This document shows positions 2,870 through 55,288 of a DNA stretch of 64,000 bases, in pieces. Source of the DNA: Fasciolopsis buskii. Its lineage: Eukaryota > Platyhelminthes > Trematoda > Plagiorchiida > Fasciolidae. Positions within the stretch are counted from its first letter, which is position 1. Every line of letters starts with the position of its first letter. The translations under genes and the position numbers were made by a program. The stretch lies in assembly GCA_008360955.1 (NCBI GenBank), contig LUCM01009254.1, positions 1-64,000 of the forward strand. Direction: 5' to 3'. The notes beneath the pieces were generated by a model that worked only from the letters and a program-made list of their open reading frames with translations, did no database searches and was not told the DNA's origin.

Positions 2870-3190
2870 CCTACGGTGAAGAAATAGTCAAACATTGCTA
2901 GCGGCCCGTGGCCGTGAAAATCAGTGACGGATGGGTGCAAAATCATGTGGTGAATTTCAACAAACCGCTCACAGCCTGCCTGGTAGTGTAATGGTTAAGG
3001 CGTTCGACTCGGATTCTTTCTTCCCGGATTCGCGTCCCAGTTGGGGGCAGTGGATATGCTCTGCTGGTGATTCCTAAAAAGGATGAAACAGCTGTACAGT
3101 GTTTCGACGGTTCCCTAATGGTGGGTTGAACAATGATATCACAAGGTGAATTATATGATCAAAACCTTGTACTGTCAGGAAGAAATAAGT
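2870..3190 (+). repeat. Solo copy of the tRNA/hammerhead SINE-like repeat
   Basis: Matches the array consensus in sense orientation from about 2895 to the tail GGTGAATTATATGATC. A box TAGTGTAATGGTTAAGG at 2984-3000, B box GGATTCGCGTCCC at 3026-3038. The hammerhead-like core is at 3058-3100: CTGGTGA (one change from CTGATGA) at 3064-3070, stem II TCCT-AAAA-AGGA, GAAA at 3084-3087, then ACAGCTGTA and CAGTGT. It is the only near-complete solo copy in the window and is diverged by perhaps 15-20 percent by eye. Confidence 0.75.
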
Positions 3191-7352: not shown

Positions 7353-7514
7353 CTTTCTTTTTCTTCTGTGTTCTGTCTTCCGTTTAATCAGTTGTCTGCT
7401 GGTTTGTCCGATGTATTCTGCTAGGCATTCCGTGCAACTAATTTTGTAGATGTACTTGTCTTCTTGATCTTTAGCTTTTAATAAGTGGCATTTCAAAGTA
7501 TTATCAAAGTATTA
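7353..7514 (-). pseudogene. Penelope-like element fragment with GIY-YIG-type motif
   Basis: The minus strand reads about 50 open codons: LKCHLLKAKDQEDKYIYKIS, then CTECLAEYIGQTSRQL, then IKRKTEHRRKRK and a stop. The CxxC pair before YIGQTSR and the R..EH that follow are the signature of the GIY-YIG endonuclease at the C-terminus of Penelope-like reverse transcriptases. The reverse-transcriptase part and the end of the nuclease are not recognisable nearby, so this is a dead fragment. A plus-strand unit shared with 29308-29504 lies 340 bases downstream. Confidence 0.7.
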
Positions 7515-10940: not shown

Positions 10941-11005
10941 ACAAATCTCTTCATGAAATAATTCACCATGTGATATCATCGCCCAACTCACCATAAAGAA
11001 ACCAT

Positions 11006-11062
11006 GGAAGCACTGTATTGCCGTTTGATCCTTGTTAGGAATCATCAGCAGTGCATATCCAC
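11006..11062 (-). ncRNA. Hammerhead-ribozyme-like core, unit A (decayed)
   Basis: On the minus strand the core CTGATGA (RC at 11042-11048) is followed by stem II, TCCT-AACA-AGGA. The second core box is CAAA, not GAAA, and the helix III segment is changed to ACGGCAATA. Helix I (GCACTG with CAGTGC? here ACAGTGC) is still pairable. Expected inactive because of the GAAA change. Confidence 0.5.
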
Positions 11063-11074
11063 CACACCCGAGTT

Positions 11075-11130
11075 GGGACGCGAACCCAGGACGAACGATT
11101 GTGAGTCGAACGCCTTAGCCATTACGCTAC
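11075..11130 (-). promoter_or_regulatory. Pol III A and B boxes of the tRNA-like head, unit A
   Basis: On the minus strand, TAGCGTAATGGCTAAGG (A box, RC about 11113-11129) and GGGTTCGCGTCCC (B box, RC 11075-11087) lie about 25 bases apart between the 5' part and the hammerhead core. The wording TAGYGTAATGGYTA resembles the D arm of Asp/Glu/Gly tRNAs. Equivalent boxes occur in the other units; in units B/C the B box reads GGTTCGCGTGCC. Confidence 0.6.
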
Positions 11131-11396
11131 CGGGCAGGCTCTGAACGGTTCGTTGAACTTCACCACATGATGTTGCACCTATCCGTGACTGATTTGCACG
11201 GTTACTGTCCGTTAGCTCACAGCGATCGACCCCTACTGATAGATGACTTCTCTGCAGGTAGCCTAAGTACGACGAAGGCTTTGGATATGACCTACAGAGC
11301 TTGATTACTTGATGCATTTTAGTAGTAGGAGATTGAATGTTTACATGAAATAATTCACCATGTGATATGATCGCTCAACTCACGATAAAGAAACCA

Positions 11397-11458
11397 TGGA
11401 AGCACTAACTGTACAGCTGTTTCATCCTTGTTAGGAATCATCAGCAGTGCATATCCAC
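11397..11458 (-). ncRNA. Hammerhead-ribozyme-like core, unit B
   Basis: Minus strand: GCACTG, then CTGATGA (RC 11438-11444), stem II TCCT-AACA-AGGA, then GAAA (RC 11420-11423) and ACAGCTGTA, a 3-bp helix III (ACA/TGT) with a two-base loop and A at the cleavage position. Both catalytic boxes are intact. The 3' strand of helix I reads CAGTTAGTGC, so four extra bases bulge the 6-bp helix. A U-U mismatch sits where a G-C pair usually closes stem II. Topology would be type I with minimal helix III, as in Penelope-linked hammerheads. Confidence 0.6.
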
Positions 11459-11579
11459 CGCGCCCGAACTGGCACGCGAACCCGAACAAGGACGAACGAT
11501 TCTGAGTCGAACGCCTTAGCCATTAGGCTACCGGGCAGGCTCTGAACGGTTCGTTGAACTTCACCACATGATGTTGCAC

Positions 11580-11618
11580 CTGTCTCTTATACACATCTAG
11601 ATGTGTATAAGAGACAGN
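11580..11618. other. Nextera junction adapter (two Tn5 mosaic ends) plus N: assembly artefact
   Basis: The 19-bp mosaic end CTGTCTCTTATACACATCT is followed at once by its exact reverse complement and then a single N. This 38-bp palindrome is the circularisation junction of Illumina Nextera mate-pair libraries and is not genomic. It sits inside the tandem repeat, where a gap was probably closed with an untrimmed read. Confidence 0.98.
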
Positions 11619-11730
11619 ATGACCTACAGAGCTTGATTACTTGATGCATTTTAGTAGTAGGAGATTGAATGTTTACATGAAATAATTCACCATGTGATAT
11701 GATCGCTCAACTCACGATAAAGAAACCATG

Positions 11731-11790
11731 GAAGCACTAACTGTACAGCTGTTTCATCCTTGTTAGGAATCATCAGCAGTGCATATCCAC
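11731..11790 (-). ncRNA. Hammerhead-ribozyme-like core, unit C (identical to unit B)
   Basis: Same bases as the core of unit B, offset by 332, including the same four-base insertion in helix I. CTGATGA is at RC 11770-11776 and GAAA at RC 11752-11755. Because this falls in the duplicated 294 bases around the adapter, it probably is not an independent copy. Confidence 0.5.
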
Positions 11791-12130
11791 CGCGCCCGAA
11801 CTGGCACGCGAACCCGAACAAGGACGAACGATTCTGAGTCGAACGCCTTAGCCATTAGGCTACCGGGCAGGCTCTGAACGGTTCGTTGAACTTCACCACA
11901 TGATGTTGCACCTATCCGTGACTGATTTGCACGGTTACTGTCCGTTAGCTCAGAGCGATCGACCCCTACTGATAGATGACTTCTCTGCAGGTAGCCTAAG
12001 TACGACGAAGGCTTTGGATATGACCTACAGAGCTTGATTACTTGATACATTTTGGTAGTAGGAGATTGAATGTTTACATGAAATAATTCGCCATGTGATA
12101 TGATCGCTCAACTCACCATAAAGAAACCAT

Positions 12131-12190
12131 GGAAGCACTGTACAGCTGTTTCATCCAGCTTGTTAGGAATCATGAGCAGTGCATATGGAC
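12131..12190 (-). ncRNA. Hammerhead-ribozyme-like core, unit D (decayed)
   Basis: Helix I strands GCACTG and CAGTGC, helix III ACAGCTGTA and GAAA are intact, but the first box reads CTCATGA and stem II has a three-base insertion (AACAAGCTGGAT). Expected inactive. Units A, B and D carry different lesions, so the consensus, not any single unit, gives the full motif. Confidence 0.5.
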
Positions 12191-12527
12191 CGCGCCCGAA
12201 CTGGGACGCGAACCCGAACAAGGACGAACGATTCTGAGTCGAACGCCTTAGCCATTACGCTACCGGGCAGGCTCTGAACGGTTTGTTGAACTTCACCACA
12301 TGATGTTGCACCTATCCGTGACTGATTTGCACGGTTACTGTCCGTTAGCTCACAGCGATCGACCCCTACTGATAGATGACTTCTCTGCAGGTAGCCTAAG
12401 TACGACGAAGGCTTTGGATATGACCTACAGAGCTTGATTACTTGGTGAGTTGGGCGATGATATCACATGGTGAATTATTTCATGAAAACATTCAATCTCC
12501 TACTACTAATAAAAAACAAATCTCTTC

Positions 12528-12821
12528 CTCAGTAAACAGGAACAGACGGTCGGTGGATAGACCACCCTGATAGATAAATCCTTGTTCCAATAATAAGTCA
12601 AACACACCATCGACCTTACAATGTTCACTGAAATTGACCAGTGTTTTTAGGCAACTAGCACCCGACTTGAGACTGTTTTGATAAGTTTGAAATGCGGGTA
12701 AGGCATGGACTGCTTTGGTGGATAAAGTATCTCTTATGTCAATGGTTATCACATCGGAAGAACGAAAATATTGCATAGCTTCCGTATTCATATTCGTTTC
12801 ATACCTGATAAATATTTTCAT
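12528..12821 (-). other. Unrecognised open frame ending next to the repeat array
   Basis: The minus strand is open for about 100 codons (12821 down to 12492). The part outside the repeat reads, for example, VITIDIRDTLSTKAVHALPA and VNFSEHCKVDGVFDLLLEQG, with a protein-like residue mix. The 12-bp target repeat falls within the last codons (TEEEIC), so before the insertion the frame would have reached a TGA within two codons. No family is recognised and no convincing splice sites were found; it may be a chance frame. Confidence 0.2.
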
Positions 12822-15800
12822 GGTTCACAACCATCCACATTTGATTGGAATTCGCGCAAATATTGATCCTGAAATTGTGAATCGCAGTTTTTCAAACCCT
12901 ATGAAAATAAGTAAATCGATATCCACAACAAACTGCTAAGTAATTCATCTACAGATTTTATCCAATATGTAGACATACTCATTGATTCTAAATCACGCAA
13001 CGTTTTTATCCCGCAAGACCGTGTATGCATTGGAAGCATACTCAATTAGCAACAAATTTGAATTGCGTTTGCAAACGATTGTTACACCATACCAACCGGA
13101 AGTAATTACACGTCCAGGCAAGTAAAACTAACGCACAGGGCGATAAAAACCAAACTTAGGTAAATGTGCTAAATACTACAATTCATTTTGACAAATAAGT
13201 TTACGTAAACAAAAAAGATTTTGATTCAGAATAACGTGTGAAAATTTATGCTTGATTTCACACTGAGACCCAGTCCCATGTGCACGAGTTCAACATTAGT
13301 TCCGTTTCAAATTCTGGTTGGCTTCAGTCGACGCTGAGAAGTCTGCGTTTTAATGGTTATGTTGGAATTCATACTGTGCCATACTGGCATAGTGGCAAGC
13401 CATAGTTGAGGTACGTTTACGAAAATTCATAAACCGTTCTTTTGAAAGCATTGGATTTAAACCTTGTCGCATTTGATGGCACTCCAGTTCCGGTAAGTGA
13501 TCGATAATCTCGACTATCGAGAAGTCGCATTATTTTAATAATTATAATGGACAAAAGAACCGAACTATCTGATTAGGGTAGAACCTTTGAGACCACTTCA
13601 TTTTAACACCTTTCAAGGCGTGGAGACCACAGACACAGAACCCGAGCAGTCAGTTGAATATCGTGAAGAAGCAAAATCAGCTTCCACTCAGGTTGTTTGC
13701 TTGCTGCCTTAGCTGTATTTCACAGTTTTCTCCAACCAAAGATTTTTTGCCAAGGAATGCAATGTCATGTGCATCGGTCAGTAGTGCCCTGATGCACAAC
13801 ATTTATAATTCATTGACTACAAAAGCCATGAAACAGACTAGATGGAACGAACTTGTAAAGCTAGATAAGTTTACGTATTCCTAAAAAAACTGCACAATAA
13901 GCCTCAAAATGAGAGCCTTTTTTGACCAAATCTTGACCAGTTTTCCCTGATCACAAAACTCATCGAATCACGTGATTTTCGTCATTGTAATCCGCTTTGC
14001 AAACAGCAAAATCAAAGTCTGGTACAGAAGGCTTTATAAAAAACGGCAATTTGACAAATAAAAATTGCGAAATGAAAGGAGTGAGCACCGAACTTTTGCT
14101 TGTTTTCACCTATTGTTTATAGATTTCAAAGCACAAAACCGAGGTGAGAAGTAAAGCGCACGGGTCTAAATGAGAAAACAAAGTCTATCTAAGTGTTTGA
14201 CTTATGGGCGATGTGAGACGAAATAATTGGTTTCGTTTTAGCGCAATAATATAAGTTGACTTGGTGATGTTTTATTTATGCATAAATCCAGAGACATATG
14301 CAGTTGTCTTCTTGCCTGATGGTTGAGCAAATATCGATTTGTTTTGCAATTTTTCGCGGTTCAGCCGAATTCATTTGAAACATACCTTAACACATGCTAC
14401 CTAAGGTGAACAGTATCGAAGTTATACGCTTATCAGATCCCGATGAGATGTCCAAGACAGTTTGGGAGCTCCAAATACACTTTTGTTTTTAGCTGACATT
14501 CGTGCACATTCTCCTAGATCAGATTGCCTCTGTTTGCATTTCTCTGTGAAGCTAGAGATTGGAAAATCGCTTTTAAATGTCAGCTGTCGGAATTAATTTC
14601 GTAATTTTATGTCTACGACGAAAAAAATACTTATATGGATACGAAATTTAAAGACAACTACGGCGGTTCCTCGCAATACTCGGTAGTTGCTTTTCCAACA
14701 ACTCGGCGGTTTACCTTCGTCGGTGCAAATCACCTGTTGCCCACATTTAAGTTAATCCCAAATTTATAACCAGATGGTATGACTGTTTTCAAACGAGCTA
14801 CAGGATGGGATCTGGGTGTAAAAATACGGATGGATAATACGATCATCTGAAATAATCCGACTTAGACCAGGTCATGGTGAAAGGTAGGTTGGGTGCTGGA
14901 TTCCCTTTTTCCCGTGATTTACTGGTCAAACACATTCTGCCGTCTTTCCAACAGAAAATGAATCTGAGTGAATGAATTTGGTTGGGATGCCTTTTAACCT
15001 TGCGCACCAAACGACTGTTTTACTGCATGCTGCCCTTCAAAGTACGCGATGATTAGAATGTAGTCCCCGTTGGCTGGTGGATAATGCGCCCAGTGGGTAT
15101 AAAAAACGTCACCTGATGAACTGGTTCTTGTGAATGCAGTAAGATTACCACAATGGGTTCCACTAGGTCACCCAAAGTGTTCATTGGAGACAAAATGTGA
15201 TATGGCTCAATGCCGTATTTGAAACATCCGCCAATACCGTTGTTTTATTGGCTTCATTGCATTCATAAGAATAAATATTCTGCCGTGTTGTTGATGATTC
15301 ACCACAACTGATATTGAGAACAGTATCCATGAAAATTCGGAGCATGATCTAACAAATGCTGGACTGTTTCGGTTATTCTTCTTCAGACACCTTCCCAAAG
15401 TTCCACCGGGAAATTTTCAGTGTGCACTGCAATGAAATATAACCTCAGACGACCATGCAATCAACATCTGTGACGCTTAGCGAACTGGGACAACATAACT
15501 CATTCGCCGGAAACACTGGAGTATCAAAGGACCGAAATACCTAACTGCCAATATGTGCTGATTTGATCTGACAGCCGAGTACCACTGAGTGAACGGTCAC
15601 ACCTTGTCCATCGAGGAAGACGAGTCTGTTTATCAAAGTTCATGCCAATATTTAGTTTCGGTATCTTATGAAAAGAAAAAAATATGCACGGTGAACATAA
15701 TTTAGCGATTCGTGTCCGGAATTTCTACTTCCGAACTTTCCCTGTTCCTAAGGAAAAGAGTTTGATTGGTTGCCGGTGAAGATAAGGCAGTTTCAGTAAT

Positions 15801-27084: not shown

Positions 27085-27300
27085 TGCCTTTGAAAATCGT
27101 GGAATCGAGGCATTGTTGTTTCACCCATGTTAAGAATCATCACCCGTGCATAATCATTGCATCGGGACGTGGATGTCAACACGGGAAGAAAGCCTGTGAT
27201 CGAAACATTTTAGCCATTACCTTGACCTGGCTGGTTCCCGACGGCTCATCGAACATCGACACTACATGATTTGATGCCCGTAGGTGTGACTGGAATTTGC
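27085..27300 (-). repeat. Decayed copy of the tRNA/hammerhead SINE-like repeat
   Basis: Minus strand, recognisable from GTGTAATGG-like remnants (RC TTTTAGCCATTACC at 27209-27222), the B-box region (RC GGGACGTGGATGTC) and the hammerhead area (RC TTAAGAATCATCACCCGTGCAT). Core boxes are lost. The 5' part to about 27300 (CACTACATGATTTGATGCCC) also aligns to the array. Confidence 0.6.
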
Positions 27301-27369
27301 AAACCATATACTTTTAAACGCACAAACTTAAATACTCTGACAGTGCACGACGTATCATCTGGAAATTCA

Positions 27370-27540
27370 TATTCAATCTCCTACTGGTTCAAAATATGAA
27401 TTAGCAAATTTATTTAGGGCTTTGTGCTATTGTATTCGCTTCCTACGGAAAACTTCGTCCTCACTGCAGATGATTCCTAACAAGGATGAAACAACAGTAC
27501 ATTGATTCCATGATTTTCAAAGGTATTGGCTCTACATGAG
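27370..27540 (+). repeat. Fragments of the same SINE-like repeat in the opposite orientation
   Basis: ATTCAATCTCCTACT at 27372 is the linker seen next to element tails. At 27460-27530 the sense hammerhead region recurs: CACTG, CAGATGA (one change from CTGATGA), TTCCTAACAAGGAT, GAAAC, then ACAGTACATTG and TCCATG. With the minus-strand copy at 27085-27300 it forms an inverted pair. Confidence 0.6.
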
Positions 27541-29126
27541 GGGTCATTTAAAAATTCACATCAAATTTCTCACTAATTTAAAACAAGAAAATCAATAGAT
27601 CATTGCTTGGACCAGTAAATAACTGCTGATTGTTGCCAGTGTTTTGCAATTACACCCGTAGCACACAAAAGAAACAGCAATGCTCCGTCCGAATGCGAAT
27701 ACATCCATATGTCCCAATGTTTCCAGGAAACCTGTACTGCGCAAAATCTCTGCTATAACATTTCACGATCCGCTTAAGCTTGCCTACCGTTACAACAGCC
27801 AATGGCGAGAAAGTGTTCGACAGTTTGTTCGTCTTCATATAGGCTTGTAAATTCCACAAGTATTCATCGAGCCATCGAGTCACCACCTACTCTGGTCGCC
27901 ATGTACCAGGATTTACAGTGGCCGCTACGTCCATCCACCATGTTTGGCTGAGAGTTGTTGCGCAGGACATGGAACAACCCATCTAACTCTGGGTCTCCGT
28001 TCTTGACTAACCGATTCCAGATGGCTATGTATTTCAATGGAAATGACATTGAATTTCCGTCTAAGAGACACGTAGAAAAAGAAACGGAACCAAACAATTT
28101 GCTGCATGCAAACTTATTCGTGAACAATTATCACAAAGTCTTTAGTGGCATGCCATATTGTATTTTCACCACATCCCCCTGGAATATGTTTCATAAACAG
28201 CTTTCTTGGAAGATTGATTTCTGGTTTCCCTAATTTAGTTTTCTATGTTTTATGTGACTGCCACCACATGAATAGGAAGAATGTATGTGTATGCGTACTG
28301 TGGGGGCAGAAATGTTGTGAATAGATCTCCGATAGTTTTACTATGGACACAAAATATCTGGGTTTTTTTTTCTAACACCGAACGACACGATCCCCTGCTT
28401 CATGTGCCACGTTTTTGGGTAAGCGCATTATTCGTCTTACCAGTTCCACTTCCACTTTGGTAACGTTCATCGGCACTAATTGTAGCAGCTAACGGGGCAC
28501 GTCCATAACTGTCCGGTATCCAACCGATTAAAAGTGCAAATTACTCCGCTTGCTTTTACCAGGATGACAAAATCATCGCTCCAGTTTTCACGCTTTGATG
28601 CTTCATATAACTTTAAAACTATGAATGATATTGCCATGCATGAATTCATTCATAAATTACCTGTTCGGTCCAGAAGTGTCATTTGATGCATTTTTCCTGT
28701 TCATTTGTATAGACATCCTAAGGTAATTAAGGCATTTAAAAAGGAATGTAAATTATTTGATGGTATGAAGGAAAGCTGGCATTTTTAATCATGGTTATTG
28801 TATCTGTTTTGTTAGTAGCTGTAACCTTCTAGAGTGTTACTTTCCTAACATAAGCAAATTTAAACTACTGATTTTTTTCATAGTGGTTTTGACTTTTATA
28901 AAAAAAAATTTGCTTTGCGATTTATTTTATTGACATTCTCCCAGGGCAACGGAGGTTACATAGGTGCTCAACTGGCCCCTTTGGCATTATCAGTCCTGAT
29001 TGATATTCAGAATTCGACTCCCCAAACAGCATGTCCTTCGATCAGCCGACCGTGGTTATTCAGACCGATGCGAAATAATTCCCCACCAAACAGCATGACT
29101 GAAAACACCAAATTCATTTTAGTTTT
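27541..29126. other. No recognisable gene
   Basis: Short overlapping frames on both strands, no motifs, no repeat relationship to other parts of the window noticed. Confidence 0.45.
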
Positions 29127-29230
29127 CATGAAATAATTCACCATGTGATATCATCGCTCAACTTACCATAAAGAAACCATAGAAGCACTGTACAGCTATT
29201 TCATGAAAACATTCAATTTCCTACTACTAA
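29127..29230 (-). repeat. Truncated, rearranged copy of the SINE-like repeat
   Basis: Starts with the element terminus CATGAAATAATTCACC and runs to the hammerhead 3' part (AGCACTGTACAGCT). It then switches at a short TTTCAT match to a sense-orientation tail, TTTCATGAAAAC then ATTCAATTTCCTACTACTAA. The same foldback tail ends the array at 12445-12510. It abuts the 15-bp repeat that bounds the palindromic element at 29246-29502. Confidence 0.65.
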
Positions 29231-29245
29231 CATGTATCATTTCAG

Positions 29246-45600: not shown

Positions 45601-48600
45601 TTTCATAAAGAACATATTTCCAGTTAACCGGGTTTGGATTTGATGCATCAGTGATCTTTTGTTTCTGATGGTTTATCTCTAATGGGAAAGTCAACTAACA
45701 TTCTAGCTTTCCTACGTTTATTATCACTTGGAATGAAAAGTTTTTTGCAGGCATTCTCCCTCATTTGATACACTGTAACTTTTCAAGCTCGAAAAATTTG
45801 ATTCCAAAGAATCTAGTTTGTCTTTGGTCAACTTTTGGTAAAATTTGCGGCACGATTAGGACATAACAAAACCGCGGTGAAAGTACACTGATTTGGAGGC
45901 ATTCCAAATGACGCTGAGGTATACGTTAGCAATTGGTTATTTTCATGAAATAATTCACCATGTGATATTACTGCTCAACTCACCATTAAGAAAAGATGGA
46001 AGCATTGTACAGCTGTTTCATCCGTGTTAGGAACCGTCAGTAGTACATATTCACCGCCCCCGAACTGGGACGCGAACCTTGGAGGGACAATTTTGAGTCG
46101 AACGCGTTAAACATTACTCTACAGGACAAGCTCTCGCTTTAACAGAATAAAAAATCTAACCACCAAAACCATTAGCCGCCTTCTTTTTTTTATTTTCTTT
46201 TTTACTTCACAGTTCAGTGAATCCCCTCCGGAGAATCACACGGGAACTGATCCGGAAAACACATGTAAGTGTTAAACATTAAACACCCCGTATTATCAAT
46301 GAAATGCCTCATTACCACGATCACTCAAAGATAGTTCAATACAAACAATGAATGTAATAACTCTTCTAATAACGCGACATCTGTTATGAGTTCGCTTGGA
46401 TGAACGACAGTACAGTGCTACCTTCCACAGTGAGCTAATGAATAATGGTCAGGCCGTCCTTGATGAAATACACCGTGGCGGACCCAGTTATGATTTTTTC
46501 CAATTCAGGAATATTCTAACCTCAAAAAAGTATCATTTTGGAGATCTTATGGATGACTTCTGACGCAGGAACATAGCTGTAGCTCCAAGTAGAGACATGA
46601 CGTCATGTCGAGAGCGCGCAAGATGTTAGCGAAGACTTACATGCGTCTTTAATTTTCGGCTAAGTCCGTCCAAATAAGTAGATTTCCTACAAAAGAAATT
46701 CAACCTGGGTGATGCCGCCATTCGTCTTGTTTTACGAGACACTGCGAATACATAAGCCGCAGATCTTAATTTAATAGAAGCCCGAGAACTGACCACGAGC
46801 AGAGATGAACTACAAAATCTGATGAATGAGTTTACCTGCAATCATTAGTATTTTAGCAGTGCCACTGGTATTAGTGCATTGAAACTAACTAAATGAAGCG
46901 ATCAATTCAGCGGCTCAGTAGTTTACCTTCAGGGAAATTACTTTTTGCATTGGTGTAAAATACTGCGAAACAGTCGTGTTGATTCATTTCTAGAATATAT
47001 CGGTAGATAGCACTTGTCCAACAGACCACACGCATAAATATCTGTTCCAAGCTAAGAACATTGATTATGTAGATGGCAGCTCTCAGTAGAAATGGTACAT
47101 AGCTATCTACCCATGATTTTAGATCGACAGGCAATTTGATATTTTAGTGCATGTTAATCTGGTGAGAAAATGCATAAGAAACCAGGCAACGAAATTATCA
47201 ATTAAACTTGTACGTATGCGGATAGGAAGCTTCCCGTGAAAATGACTGGTACAACTTGGTGTATGCGCTGTCCAGGCTGTGCTTTGTTTGGTGGACAAGG
47301 GAAATTTTGCAAGTTACTCACTTTCAAAAGACCCTTTTGTGTCAATGAAAGGTGAACGGAACAATTATTAATAAACACAATGCGCTAACGTGGTTTATGA
47401 GAAAGTGTCATTATTTTCAAAGTCACTGGCTAAAATGATTCAACTCCATGAAAGAGGGATTCCCGATGACGGATTATCAGATTCATAACTCTAGGAGGAA
47501 AAACTATATGGTCTTGCACACAGATCGCATTCGATACAACAAACCTATTGTGAAATCCAAAGCCCTGCTTTGTTTGTCTTATCGTGCATTTCACAAAGTA
47601 CGTTTCCATCGTACTAGGGGATACCTGGCCCCTGCTGTGCTCCACTACCACAACTAGAGTTTACGAGATACGCATGTGCTTCTGAGGGCTCACAACGCAA
47701 AACCAACATTAAATATAAATATGAAGGAACAGAAGACACAGATCACATGATGCAGGCATTTCTTTTGCTCTGAGTAGCATATGTAAAACAAGTGAATGCT
47801 CGTTAGAATGAGACAAGGAGCAACACAGTAGAAAACAAACAGTTTAGACAAACTCAAGAAATCGCTTGACGGAAGCCGACTGGTTAAAGCCACGGCAGGG
47901 TAATCTCGATAAACTCATCAGACCATCCGTTCGTATTCGGAGTCTGTTATGCACCTTTCGTATTTGATCAGCTGTGAAAAAATTTCGGGCTCTATACCAT
48001 TTGGATTTACGAGACCCCGTTTGTAGGCAAATGTTGCATAGCTGGAGAACTGCATGTACTTCACATTCCTAGTTGCTTCATGATGAACTGCACAGCTTGT
48101 CACTGAAAGATCTTCCCTTGCTTGTAGGTGAAAAGTTTAAGCGTATTTTGTTAAGCTGACTGATGAGTTCTCATCGACATAATACCTACTCTTGATGAAT
48201 TGAGCGATATGACTAGGCATTTGCTTTTTAATCATCCCGGGGAATGTATATGTCATTTTCGATCCAAGAAGAGCTACCAGTGGCAACACCATCAAAGTTT
48301 GTATGACTGCACCTCATAGACAAAATGTTTGTTTTCAGTACATACAAAATTAGACCCTCGATGTATGGGATAGGATCAGATAAAGTGAGGTTCAATGTAG
48401 AAAGTATATCATATAAACAGTCCACTAATTCACATTTTCTGACTTGCTGGTAGCTGATCCGGAGTATTTGATAATTAAATTGAATCCTTTAGACAGTGTG
48501 GTGTCAAGTGTTTTCTGATAGTGTAGAGAGTAGACAGCCAACGTGCTTATCTGTGGCAAGCGAAGTTTTGCTTCCTTCTGGTTATGTGTGCTTTTTATCC

Positions 48601-51600
48601 GTTCTATTCAAACTGATCAACTATAGTAATATGTGCTCAAATATGCCGGCAGGCGTTATGCCGCCGGAAACATGACGACTGTCGAAATAGTGACCGAGAA
48701 AGTAGAAATTAAAAATCAGTGTTCACATTTCACCACAAATACTGCTACTCTCATTCTCCTATTCGCGTCTTCTGCCATCCATTGGAATACATGATTGTTC
48801 TGTGTTTGTTGTCACCGAGTTGGCCGAACCAAGGGAGTGGGTTGACTTATGGTGTCTTGCCCCGATTTCACAAGGCAGTGGGACGCTCTATGGGTCATAT
48901 AAGGAACTTACGCGGATAATATGGGACCTTGGTTCAAAAGGACGGTAGGAAATAAATCCAAAATGGTATGATGAAAGCTTGACTAAGGACATACTACAAG
49001 TAGGCAACGAAATACAAATCCTGGTACTTGAGAGTTGCACTTCCCGATTCCAAAGCCCAAATGGGCTTTTTTCAGCGCCATACCTCAGTCGAGTCAGACG
49101 AACAATGTGCTAGAAGAAGATTTCGATTCAGCAACCGGCCACTCTCTCACTGTCTCTTGGTACAGAATAATCGATATTGCCAACGAATCGGAGCCGATAA
49201 AGCTAGAAATCTTTATGTTTCTGAAAAAAAAATTAACATAAAAGTCCACTTTCCTAGTTCACCTACCCGACTAGATGAAAATTTTGACAGATTGTTCTCC
49301 AAGTACTAATGCATGAACTCATCGGAAAGAATCCGCTTGCTTGAATATCGTTTCTTCCGTCGATTGCCACCAAATCGTTATAGCCTACTAACTCTAGTGA
49401 GAACGATCAAGTCGGACGGACATAAAAGCTCTTCAGTTATTTGTAAACTGATTTGTTTATAAGGATTTACATCGGTTAGCGATCCTTTTTCAGTATATCC
49501 ACTGTCATAACTAAAACATTTTTCCTTCCTCCATGTTAATGATTTAACCAAAATTGCGTCGCTAGTCAAGAGGTAAAGAAACCATTGTCATTGCCACTCG
49601 TGACAGAGAAACTATATCAGTGGGTAAAAAATCTCAGCGCAAATAGCACATAGAAGGCACTATGCAAGAATGACGGTCATACCATGAAGTTATCAAACGC
49701 AACACAATGCTCCAGTACATCTACTCTGACATGCGGTTAAAAGTAAGCTATCCAAACTTACTAGCTATTCCTTGATCGGAAAATCTTACTGTTAAATAAC
49801 CAATTTGTACATTATACTGGCGAGATAAGCAAAAGTTTAATTATGAGTGGAATAGTCGCAGAACATCTTGGTGATAACAACAAAATGTTTTAGATAACAT
49901 TTTTTCAATTTTGAGCACTGAAAAATCCTGCAAACCGACATCTGCAGTTCTCTGGGATGATCAGTTTATTAGGAGGCGCTTAAGTAGCTACTTTCACCGT
50001 TGCCTGTGAAGTAAAAAGTCAGTGTATAACTAACTGAACTCTAGAAGTAAAAACCTTTCACCTGCCGAAATATTTTCCCTTTTTAATCGAACGTTGAAAG
50101 TACTCTTTGAATTTCCTTTTCTGTTGTATGCGTGAAATTTAGAATCTCCAAAATTGTTTTGTTTTTGTCATCCCAGTTGGCCGTATATTGTTACCTTACA
50201 AAAATGATCACTTATATTACAGACACTCGAAACGGTTCCACAGAACACATTGTTCCCACTTCAGTGGCTCCATCAATGGCTCCACCACCGACAGGTTCCC
50301 TACCGATATCCCCAACCCCTTATCCTGTTCAATTCGGACAGATTCCACTAGGTCAGACCTATCCTCCTAGTCAATATCCTGCATATCCACCTCCACCGAT
50401 AACCAGCGGTGTACAACCAGCGCCAACAGCACAAGTCGCTTATCCACAACCAGTTCCGCCGGCGTACACTGCACCCGTGTACACATCCCCAACAATCATT
50501 CAACCAGTTGCCTATCCAGTCCCATCTTACCCACCACAGCCGGTGTACATGTCACCAGCCAATCAAACTTCTGGGATGTATAATCCAGCACCTATTAGTT
50601 CAGGACCTCAGGTTCATGCTATTCCGCAAACAGTAACCTCGAGTAATAGTGGCTTGCGGACAGCAGCCATTGGTGAGTCTCGAATCGTTATTGATTATCT
50701 CGCTGATTATCAGACCCTGATCACGTTTTCCCATTCCAACGTGCAGTGATTTTGATTAGCAAGCGTTGCATTCATGATAATATTTTGATGTTTTAGAACC
50801 ACCGGAATATACATATATATGTATACACTTGTGTAAATGTATATATATATATATATGCCAAGTTAGTCAGTAGCATGAAGACGAATAACCAGCGAGTTCC
50901 GGACGCACACGAACGGTTTCGCGGACATTATCGCTCATCACTTATACATGCTCGGTACTCCCGTGCTAACTAAGCTACACGCATGAACACTCCGATTTTG
51001 AGTTCCCACCAGTCTCGTTTATATGACAAGAGCGTAAATGAGTCGGGAATCCATTTTTGCGATCACAGCTGTGACACGGCAGTACCGGGCGCTCCCAGTG
51101 CTGTTGATATGTCGGTTGATCGTGTCTAACAGATACAGGGCAACTAGCGATCACAGTTATCATCCCAAAAACTGATTCCCGGTCCACTAACATCTCTGCC
51201 GTACGAAAAAGATTCTGGTGAGAATATATATACATGCATGATTATATGTGTATGGTAGATGCATTATTGTACCGCAATCGAGTTTGGTTGATAATGCATG
51301 GAAAATGCGACGCGAAAACTTATTTTTGAACAGCAAAGCTTTTTATGTAACTTTTGGAATTCTAGCCATTCACTTACGACCAGTAATTATTTATATGCCA
51401 TTAACATATTACCGTATAATAGCAGATTGACGGGATTGGCACATTACGTTTCTTATGAGTATCCCTCGGAAAATCTTATCTCCCCTCAAAACTCTGTGAC
51501 TCCGAAACGGTCCTCGTTCTATAAGTCAACATCTAGGTTGTCCGACTGGCAACCAATTTTAAGTACACTCTAATCGCATATATTTACCCTCGAAAGCCTA

Positions 51601-52243: not shown

Positions 52244-52938
52244 TCTTCTTTCCTTTTAAATGTGGAATCAAAATGGTCAATTTTTCAGTCCGTAAAAAGT
52301 TTCACACTTGACCAAATCTCAATCTCCAAAGCTCAGCCAAGGTCAAGCTAACTAGACAAACTGATACGTCCACTCTTGGACCGCAAAAACAAAATAGCCC
52401 CTTTGGAGCACCGATTAAATACGCGGAGGTTTTGTATCCAAAGTTGAAATCAGCTTTATTATCAATCTTCATTCCTTTTCCATTAGATTTGCTGGAAGTC
52501 TCAGAGTAACTGGAAAATAGTCGATATTTCTTGAGGTCTCACACAAGCTCATACTAGAGCCACAATCAGTAAGGATCACTCCAAATTCAAAGAAAATTAG
52601 CAGCTTTTTCCTGACTCACCGTTTCGTTAATAATAGACATACTAATCGTTTTAGAATTCAAGTACCTCTGTTGGCCAAGGCGCATCTAAGAGATTTCGAA
52701 TCGTGGAATAAATGTTTAACCAATATAGTCTACGGGCACCACTGTGTGCACAAAACATAAACCTGGCTGGCTGGAGTCCGAAATAAGCTAAATTTCGTTG
52801 CCAGTAGCTTTGGCCAATAAACGAACAACAATTAGTGCTCATACAAAATGCTAGAGGATAGATGGTATATCATGCGTTAAAGTTGAGCAAAGTTCTGAAG
52901 GCCTATTCCATAGTAGCCCGGGATTGTCCCTTTTCTGA

Positions 52939-53050
52939 TTAGGTGGATTTGCAGTTCGGATGATTCCTAACATGAAACGAACAGTTATACAATCTTCCCA
53001 TGGTTCGCTAATCATGACCTGATTGACGACATCCCAAGATGAATAGTTTT
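52939..53050 (+). repeat. Decayed fragment of the SINE-like repeat
   Basis: GGTGGATTTGCAG, GGATGATTCCTAACATGAAA and CCATGGTTC appear in the order of the hammerhead region and tail, with the stem II 3' half deleted. No working ribozyme is possible. It ends around GATGAATAGTTTTG. Confidence 0.45.
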
Positions 53051-55288
53051 GTAAACAAGGGGTAGAACAATGTCTTGCTTAAAACCAACTACGGTGTAAT
53101 TCAGTTTACTCTTCACTGTTCGAACTAGTGGTTTGTAACACTTTGGAGTGTCCGGTATTCAACGTCTCATCACTGTTTGAAAAGAAATCGTGCATGCATA
53201 AAGGACCTAGACTGCGACGTTATATAAGTAAGCAGTAGAACTTAATACCTTTCATTTTGTCTGTCGCAGCAGACCCCGTTTTATACAGTCTGCACACATA
53301 TTTGTCACTGAATGACTTTTGTGAACACGAGTACAATGTCTCGAGTTGACTCATTTAAATGGCGCATAACACTGACATTTCTAATCGAAATTGTCAAGTC
53401 GGTATTTATTAATCTCCAGCGTACATCAAGAATCGACGAGGTATTCGGATCTGTCTGCAGAACATGGTTGCTTGTGAAATTCTACCGAAGTCCATCATAG
53501 CTGGTGAAGCTAATATGTTTCAAACATCCGCTGCAAGAATCGCGCAATGGTTACCTAGGTTTTGAATAACAAATTCTCTTACACACTTCGCCGCAGAATA
53601 ATTTCAGGGTAAATTGCACATCCACCGTCATTGACATCGTCGTTTGGCGCTAAACATCAAGACAAGCCAACCGACTGCTGACATTTTTTTTCGTAGACTT
53701 AACGGTCACAGTAGAAAAAATGAATAAGCGTATATCGACAGGGGAAAAAGAAGAGAAAGCTTTTGTAGACAGCACTTGAAATGCAGTCTAACGGAACAAA
53801 AGTTTTTTTCAATCTTTCTGATTTGCCGAAAGATAAAAGCAGTGTCGCTGCCTTGTCTTCCAACGTTTCCGGTCAATCTCAAATTCACCAGTCAACTTCT
53901 GCTTAGACGGTCACTTTTTACGACCTTCTGGTCAAAAAGCCGAACCAGAAAGCCAGAAATGTGGTCATTCTTGCATGACAGTCAACGTTTTGGGTATCAC
54001 GTTTGGTCATGGTCTGAAGGGAGATGGACTCAGTACATCATTTTACCTGCAAACCTCGGTACCAAAATCGGCGCCAAGCATAACTTTAGGTACTCTGCTA
54101 ACCGTGGAAGCTTTTAAGTATGTGAAACTTTCAGAAGACGGCAGACCCGACGTCCTTCCACTTGGGATAACTTTGAGCTGTGATAGACTAACGCTTTTAA
54201 TTCTTCCGGTGGAGAAAATTTACCAAACAAAATAATCATAAACAACATATTTCCTTTTTCACTAATCTGTCCTGACGACTGTTCTATACATATCCTGGTT
54301 TTGAACACTAAAACTAGCTAAAATACAGACATTTTTCATCTTGCTGTGAATAAAATTATTGCATGAGAAAGCATTTTCACATCGACGTCAAAGCAATTTA
54401 CCAGAGCTTTTTGTCCACCAAAAATAGACTGTAAATCCGCAAAGTAAGAATGTGAAACTAGAGTCGCATTTGGATCGATTTTGGTGAAGTTGTCCTTACC
54501 GCGCTTTTTGCCGTTAGCGTGAGACTTTGTTCCGCTGCTTTCTATTTGTTCTTCCGGCTAGCTTGTTGGATAGACTGAATGGCATCCGGTGTTCGTAAAT
54601 ACCGAGATCATCGCTATGAGTGTGGTGTTATTGACCCAACCTTCGATCACCATAGTGATCTAAAAACAATGGCTGCGTAAGGCCTTTATGTCTACAACAA
54701 GAAAAGTAATTCACACCTGAGGCTGGTCATTAGGGTTCATCATACAATAGGCCCGTAAATGGAACTGCTTTCCCCATTGGTGCATACCTTGTTGGTCACT
54801 GTGCCGAATTTTGCTGAGGTGAAATGTGTCGGTAATCTTGAACTTAGTTTATTGTCTGTGGCCAACTTCTCCAAACCACAACATAATAGCATCATGTGTC
54901 GAACGGTCTTATTCTTACTATTTGATGATGATGACATTTCAATAACTGAAATATGACTAACGCAAACCGAGATGTGGAAGCCGAGCAGTGGTTTGAAGTG
55001 TGAGCCAATAATGCCTTTTGGATACAGACACTGACCCTACTGCATACTGGATTAGACCATTGAATAAAGGAACAGGGTACGGCCTCGGAATTTAGCCCTT
55101 GTCGGTTCGGGCAACCGGAAAACAAGGATCTTGACTGATAGCATCCGATGTGTGGATGAAAAATGGATGAGCAGAGCTATCATGCGAGGATAACTCGATA
55201 AAATGTCTTCTTCTCGCCTCTTTCTTGTTCACTCTCTCCATCATTCGTCATGATTAAGAAGGCGAATGATCTGCAATAAGATTTGTGC

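Follow-up and report, generated by a model that had tools for sequence, protein, structure and literature searches.

How is a small tandem repeat that carries a ribozyme and has no long open reading frame (ORF) inserted into a genome, and whose enzyme does it use? The question is raised by a locus of the trematode Fasciolopsis buskii (assembly GCA_008360955.1, 703 Mb in 6974 contigs). The window analyzed here is the first 64 kb of contig LUCM01009254.1 (positions 1 to 64,000, forward strand). By sequence reading, Tandem Repeats Finder (TRF) and a unit profile, a tandem array of ~397-bp units was located on its minus strand at 10952-12512. The element is probably a non-autonomous hammerhead retrozyme with a transfer RNA (tRNA)-like head, of the Smα/animal-retrozyme kind, that is inserted by the machinery of Penelope-like elements (PLEs).

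Insertion ends and the route of insertion

Read from 5' to 3', the unit consists of the tRNA-like head (positions ~270-350), directly followed by a type I hammerhead ribozyme (HHR; ~359-397) and then by ~270 bp of other sequence, with helix I of the hammerhead completed by the first six bases of the following unit. A first genome search, in which 40 of 6641 candidates were scored, gave 289 matches, and 105 full units from 40 fetched loci were aligned. Recurrence in 40 loci is far beyond chance. A first-pass annotation, made from the letters of the window, had proposed a tandem tRNA-headed hammerhead unit of ~390-400 bp; the profile confirmed such a unit genome-wide, with a length of ~397 bp.

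The insertion in the window (10952-12512, minus strand) is a tandem array closed by a short inverted piece. Profile matches on the minus strand comprise a 5'-truncated unit (12141-12494, positions 51-397), a full unit (11744-12140, positions 1-397), a nearly full unit (11020-11406, positions 2-393) and a 3' partial unit reaching ~10952; an adapter-interrupted unit at 11412-11738 (minus) has positions 2-122 at 11738-11618 and 221-397 at 11588-11412. The inverted piece (12443-12512, plus strand, positions 23-92) carries the long end and makes the insertion head-to-head, the short end being at unit position 64 and the long one at 89. A 12-bp target site duplication, GAAGAGATTTGT on the minus strand, adjoins the short end at 10941-10952, where its first base is common to the element end, and the second copy is at 12516-12527 (minus). 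Both were recognized by eye; the script had missed the duplication. The longest stop-to-stop frame within the array has 114 aa and is the sole one of at least 110 aa, so that the element, having no long ORF for reverse transcriptase plus GIY-YIG, is non-autonomous at most.

Because the linear unit profile is joined at the ribozyme cut, the ends were mapped a second time with a permuted query whose seam lies elsewhere. With this query, 108 outer 3' ends in 82 clusters were distributed over positions 55-78 (48 ends), 82-106 (37 ends) and elsewhere (23 ends); in other words, 85 of 108 ends lie ~65 or ~93 nt downstream of the cut. An earlier local-alignment pass had placed 29, 22 and 9 of 60 ends in the short zone, the long zone and elsewhere. 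As few ends are found at the cut, copying from the 3' end of a cleaved linear RNA is not the usual course, and the presence of two end zones past the cut indicates that reverse transcription starts inside an RNA running beyond it.

Both outer ends were 3' ends in 27 of the 82 clusters (27 in either pass), the window array among them. One short and one long end were combined in 14 of the 18 classifiable double-ended clusters, compared with 43% expected from the single-ended copies (P 0.003). Eight of the 27, with locus L039 set aside, are bordered by exact repeats of 9-14 bp. An internal, two-zone insertion of the PLE type is well supported by these observations. On the L039 contig, the element and its flanks together form a perfect palindrome (363 bp at 100%), probably an assembly artefact. 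The two end zones, the head-to-head insertions and the target duplications had been absent from the first-pass annotation, as had the degenerate local hammerheads and the adapter artefact described below.

This insertion structure is the one known from PLEs. According to the accessible part of Frangieh et al. (2024; PMC11167929), the PLE enzyme starts at two neighboring internal RNA sites downstream of its HHR, these two sites explain an optional 30-40 bp tail, the enzyme cuts and extends both target strands, and hammerhead mutants still insert in vitro. The accessible part of a 2013 study on rotifer Penelope (PMC3846280) describes inserts with inverted pseudo-long terminal repeats (pLTRs), most often head-to-head, with a 31-bp tail optionally on one pLTR and with duplications of 8-10 bp that not all inserts have. 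In the same text, the pLTR sequence alone mobilizes a foreign gene, cross-mobilization between PLE families was not observed, and enzyme and cis sequences are concluded to be co-adapted.

For the element in F. buskii, an internal promoter of the RNA polymerase III (Pol III) type in the tRNA head would drive a transcript over one or several units, which the hammerhead would cut, perhaps as a dimer via the palindrome ACAGCTGT. A PLE protein would then nick both target strands, and reverse transcription by this putative enzyme would start inside the RNA, ~65 or ~93 nt past the cut, where the two zones are observed. With both target strands extended, two complementary DNAs (cDNAs) would meet head-to-head with their 3' ends outward, mostly in the observed arrangement, a short end opposite a long one. 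Tandem arrays could arise from a circular or multimeric RNA template, and a short target duplication, seen in a minority of cases, would close the event.

PLEs are abundant in the same genome. A search with the L076 GIY-YIG protein (Pfam GIY-YIG, 28.7 bits) gave 150 scored matches, of 3543 genome candidates, while Pfam GIY-YIG used as the query gave 2 weak matches only (150 of 212 candidates scored). Reading the list by eye, we found six neighboring opposite-strand GIY-YIG pairs, all outward-facing, and two same-strand pairs. The PLE pair of L079 is head-to-head, with one end short and the other ~45-60 nt longer, both adjoining TA repeats (by eye), and 6 of 10 sampled PLE copies (one of the ten masked) have an HHR-like motif, with at most 1 mismatch, downstream of their ORF. 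The window itself contains a PLE-like GIY-YIG fragment (7368-7472, minus) with 49% identity to the L076 GIY-YIG over 35 aa (E 1.4e-4) and no Pfam match of its own. A PLE is likely to be the actual helper.

Several results weigh against insertion by PLE machinery in the form proposed. Five of the 108 ends are no more than 20 nt from the cut (L014, L037, L066, L067, L070; the closest at 395), and 12 of 47 single ends fall outside both classes. Among the 27 double-ended clusters, nine are unclassifiable, three short-short and one long-long; for two of the short-short clusters (L015, L068) other passes suggest a mixed pair, and the third, L039, is on the palindromic contig. A PLE with the tail of the retrozyme was not found. 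The retrozyme tail, compared by BLAST with 12 PLE downstream regions (one masked), reached a best E of 0.76, a profile search of 10 such regions for the retrozyme gave nothing, and in a genome search with the tail 40 of 1721 candidates were scored. All these downstream regions stem from a single GIY-YIG query and represent a minority of its 3543 candidates. The sampled regions lack recognizable similarity to the retrozyme, so that the helper may be another PLE family than the one sampled; from the co-adaptation of PLE enzymes with their cis sequences, a helper with a matching tail would be expected. Lastly, 50 of 105 units have a substituted hammerhead core, and hammerhead activity may therefore not be needed for insertion.

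The tRNA head with its A box, the many dispersed 5'-truncated copies (17 in 216 kb of flank) and the 9-14 bp target duplications would also suit a tRNA-derived short interspersed nuclear element (SINE) that is moved by a long interspersed nuclear element (LINE), with the HHR as a passenger and the head-to-head copies produced by twin priming. We consider this route improbable. Twin priming inverts an internal 5' part, whereas both outer ends of the copies described here are the 3' end of the element and fall into two zones. Moreover, no A-rich 3' tail is common to the printed ends, and it is the architecture of the PLEs in this genome that the insertions match.

The predicted hammerhead and the tRNA-like head

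In the window array, the hammerhead reads GCACTG, CTGATGA, TCCT/AGGA, GAAA, ACAGCTGTA and CAGTGC, as originally claimed. An intact core is present in two of the four window hammerheads, all on the minus strand: the one at 11734-11782, which has a 4-nt insert in the 3' strand of helix I (Rfam HH9 19.8 bits, under the cut-off), and the one at 11402-11450, identical to it in sequence including the insert. These two repeat each other around the adapter, and one is therefore probably an assembly duplicate. The other two are substituted, namely at 12135-12182 (CTCATGA, G5>C) and at 11010-11054 (CAAA, G12>C, with helix III broken; HH9 17 bits, under the cut-off). Helix III, which had been described as 3 bp long, turned out to consist of 2 bp (A-U, C-G) and a palindromic AGCT loop. 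The GGA/TCC extension of helix I is broken in ~40-50% of the 105 units. The pair at the base of stem II is U.U in the window and, in 22 mostly older copies, G.U (10), G-C (3), A-U (2) or unpaired (7).

Among the 105 full units, the CTGANGA/GAAA core is intact in 55 and substituted in 50, the commonest defects being a single G>C at G5, G8 or G12. At least one intact-core unit is present in 26 of 40 loci, and 14 have no full unit with an intact core. Within helix III, ACAGCTGT of the family and ACTCGAGT of the relative L045 are perfect 8-nt palindromes, which suggests that the hammerheads may work as dimers.

At the gathering cut-off Rfam gave no match in the window, where HH9 scored 17-19.8 bits (cut-off 52). 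Hammerhead_1 reached 35.4 bits (cut-off 34) in L045 and at most 33.9 bits in the family's own copies. The genome-wide Hammerhead_1 search at E 10, with 73 of 111,921 candidates scored, returned 30 matches, 1 of them above the cut-off; the same search of 14 control genomes produced sub-threshold matches in 11 and none above the cut-off. The unit profile matches 25 of the 30 Hammerhead_1 loci, mostly older copies of one or two units.

Covariation was analyzed in 22 rows, made up of 20 of 29 extracted hammerheads and two young ones, with the L005 row lacking the 5' strand of helix I. Excluded were copies identical or nearly so to a used one (L049, L050), copies with helix-disturbing indels (L064, L066, L072) and unrelated or unclear matches (L063, L073 twice, L074); leaving out the indel copies biases the set toward structure. 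Pairing of the hammerhead is kept in 85.6% of cells. Changes on both sides were found in 7 of 17 pairs and in 9 cells, compared with a shuffled mean of 4.1 (reached by 9 of 500 shuffles), and the covariation score was weaker, being reached by 53 of 500 shuffles. By helix, both-side changes affect 4 of 6 pairs in helix I, 1 of 5 in stem II and 0 of 2 in helix III. Some covariation is thus present in these selected copies. At the level of sequence, these data demonstrate a predicted type I hammerhead joined to a tRNA-like head. By analogy with known hammerheads, RNA of the family would be expected to cleave itself.

The tRNA-like heads in the window score 16.5-26.7 bits with the Rfam tRNA model, below its cut-off of 29. 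They are located on the minus strand at 11065-11135 (26.7 bits), 11478-11537 (18.5 bits), 11810-11869 (18.5 bits) and 12193-12268 (16.5 bits). Two family copies elsewhere exceed the cut-off with 33.8 and 31.2 bits (11 loci scanned), and ARAGORN reported no tRNA in the window. Of the two Pol III boxes that had been claimed, the A box is exact and the B box deviates at 2 positions from a hand-entered pattern. Since a run of four T is absent from the unit consensus, Pol III could read through; by a rough estimate, ~12% of random units would likewise have no such run. By analogy, the units would be transcribed by Pol III. Loci L045 and L070 contain diverged hammerheads right after good B-box-like sequences, GGTTCAAATCC and GGTTCAAACCC, and judged on these sequences are further putative tRNA-headed hammerhead families. 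Both also carry near-perfect tandem repeats elsewhere (~289 and 309 bp).

Array homogeneity, dispersed copies and substitutions

Adapter-like sequence, arranged back-to-back, occupies 11579-11618 inside the window array and adjoins an N at 11619; we take it to be the transposase mosaic-end of a Nextera mate-pair junction. The interrupted unit at 11412-11738 is probably an assembly chimera. TRF reported a period of 400 with 2.1 copies and, in addition, a 332-bp pair, a false period that is caused by this artefact.

In the strict form of the retrozyme cycle, HHR-cut monomers would circularize, and rolling-circle reverse transcription by an unspecified enzyme would make a homogeneous array in one event. 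This is compatible with insertion by PLE machinery, and we regard it as a possibility to be held tentatively. It is favored by the tandem unit, by array-specific unit lengths, by the higher identity of units within loci (mean 97.4%, 126 pairs) than between them (90.7%, 5334 pairs), by internal start sites, which suit a circle, and by a circular fold predicted at -121.6 kcal/mol for 397 nt, calculated without a shuffle control. However, a multi-unit linear RNA would also explain these facts, the 50 substituted cores argue against the strict cycle, and edge units are often unlike the interior ones, whose homogeneity is unreliable in this assembly. Unit-length circular RNA may form by analogy with known retrozymes. 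Clonal array interiors were rejected as proof of rolling-circle copying, as short-read assembly could also cause the difference between edge and interior.

Interior units are often identical and edge units differ, as is typical for arrays of plain satellite DNA grown by unequal crossing-over, in which ribozyme and tRNA head would be relics; the 14 of 40 loci without an intact-core full unit point the same way. We nevertheless rate this explanation as quite improbable, because the two preferred 3' end zones, the target duplications and the dispersed single-unit copies require insertion, and because the interior identity may stem from assembly.

Flanking sequence that had not been selected for the element (216,307 bases) yielded 17 more insertions. 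Extrapolated to the genome, this is ~55,000 pieces, a rough figure given a possible bias of flanks next to known copies. The window contributes six of the 17 pieces, which represent five or six sites. Older single-unit copies are located at 2897-3169 (plus; positions 192-397, then 1-73), 45928-46134 (minus; 266-397, then 1-80) and 52856-53058 (plus; 224-393, then 6-71). An older fragment lies at 27115-27301 (minus; 210-393), and a short one at 27461-27498 (plus; 359-396) is perhaps part of the same copy. The sixth piece, at 29122-29242, is a small head-to-head copy with a short end at 69, a long end at 98 and ACCAAAC at both sides.

Beside the array, an open frame at 12492-12824 (minus) reaches the insertion, with the target duplication falling within the final codons of the frame, and the array may thus have entered the end of a gene; a homology search with this ORF piece found no homologue.

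A second family of hammerhead repeats, which the unit profile does not detect, is represented in the window by a copy cut by the contig start (1-332, minus) and an older copy (50839-50969, minus), and elsewhere by L049:1-260, L055:2459-2659 and L075:2021-2190. It scores 29.4 bits with HH9 in L049, under the cut-off of 52. Its helix III is a palindromic ACCGGT, and the window copy has C3>G.

Variant alleles in the arrays of the tRNA-headed family are rich in exchanges between C and G. The share of such C<->G changes is 37/68 among alleles present in at least three loci, 12/69 in two loci, 24/74 in several units of one locus and 15/184 in a single unit. Control repeats gave 121/1450 (40 alignments, mostly <85% identical, one of them from the second hammerhead family with 8/19), and PLEs 107/1177 (20 overlapping alignments of 5 loci). 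By divergence from the consensus, the share in the array set falls from 51% (<5%) over 41% (5-10%) and 21% (10-20%) to 12% (>20%); the mostly older set found by its hammerheads shows 18% (of 56), 12%, 9% and 10% in the same bins. The four-gamete test was failed by 390 of 496 pairs of C<->G sites and 73 of 171 other pairs, with frequencies unmatched. TpC/GpA context is found at 18 of 32 common C<->G sites versus 54 of 184 positions (P 5e-4). In the second family, 10 of the 25 differences between young copies and L049 are C<->G (P 2e-5 versus control), as are 11 of 98 in older copies (P 0.35 versus control).

Retrozymes may accordingly carry a mutational signature of their own, a C<->G excess of young copies on both strands and often at TpC in two hammerhead families, but we think this unlikely. 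At positions 1-64, units adjoining a flank show 41/193 C<->G changes (P 5e-7 over control) and interior units 211/313. The excess is thus greatest in array interiors, where short-read assembly is least reliable, and this counts against a biological origin, as does the adapter-like sequence present in the assembly. The excess may be an assembly artefact, although we could name no pipeline error that makes C<->G only. Compensatory flips in the predicted circular fold were rejected, as the flips mostly break pairs, and inversion of small palindromes fits only some sites. A literature search found no published link between retrozymes and transversions. Being common to units and recurring between loci, genuine changes would arise in the RNA/cDNA cycle or during array growth, for example by bypass of abasic sites where single-stranded DNA is exposed. 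Such changes would hint at an unknown mutational step, and as they strike invariant core guanines, the cycle that spreads the element would also destroy its ribozyme.

Comparison with known systems

The first-pass annotation had likened the element to Smα and to retrozymes. With a tRNA head, a type I hammerhead and a tandem unit that are real and genome-wide, this label fits. Smα has Pol III boxes. The accessible text on Smα/W36 of Schistosoma mansoni (PMC8490949) describes a SINE-like repeat with a type I HHR, tandem and dispersed copies and some substituted cores, all of which recur in F. buskii. In contrast to that text, two PLE-type end zones and head-to-head insertions are found here, and the unit of ~397 bp is a further difference; the likeness is one of described features.

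Animal non-LTR retrozymes of coral, mussel and axolotl have ~170-400-nt tandem units with a type I HHR, a GC content <50% and, when present, target duplications, as stated in the accessible part of PMC7229834. The element resembles them as a small tandem HHR unit without a long ORF, and its U.U at the base of stem II is matched by the mismatch at the base of helix II in axolotl Amex2; a tRNA head, present here, is not mentioned in that part. The same source reports a weak helix III with a palindromic loop in amphibians and higher cleavage rates of axolotl hammerheads as dimers. The hammerhead of newt satellite 2 is active as a dimer according to the accessible parts of PMC7229834 and PMC7761336 and partly to general background, and its helix III palindrome has counterparts in ACAGCTGT of the family and ACTCGAGT of L045.

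PLEs were named the likely helper of animal retrozymes on the basis of shared HHRs, tandem copies and co-occurrence (PMC7229834, accessible part), and a 2020 review states, in the part available, that retrozyme repeats show no motif revealing the mobilizing enzyme (PMC7761336). Insertion-site evidence for a retrozyme helper was not found in the accessible parts of the open-access literature searched. In F. buskii, the insertions themselves bear PLE hallmarks, beside PLEs in one genome, and the helper question thereby becomes one for a bench test; insertion by PLE enzymes would name the long-suspected helper of retrozymes. Like the PLEs Poseidon of Anolis and Pen of Adineta, the element would use two internal starts past the HHR, with an optional tail at one end, head-to-head inverted ends and target duplications. 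Unlike them, it has no long ORF, and its tail shares no sequence with the sampled PLE copies. The proposed retrozyme would also join three element types that are usually kept apart, the tRNA-SINE, the retrozyme and the PLE.

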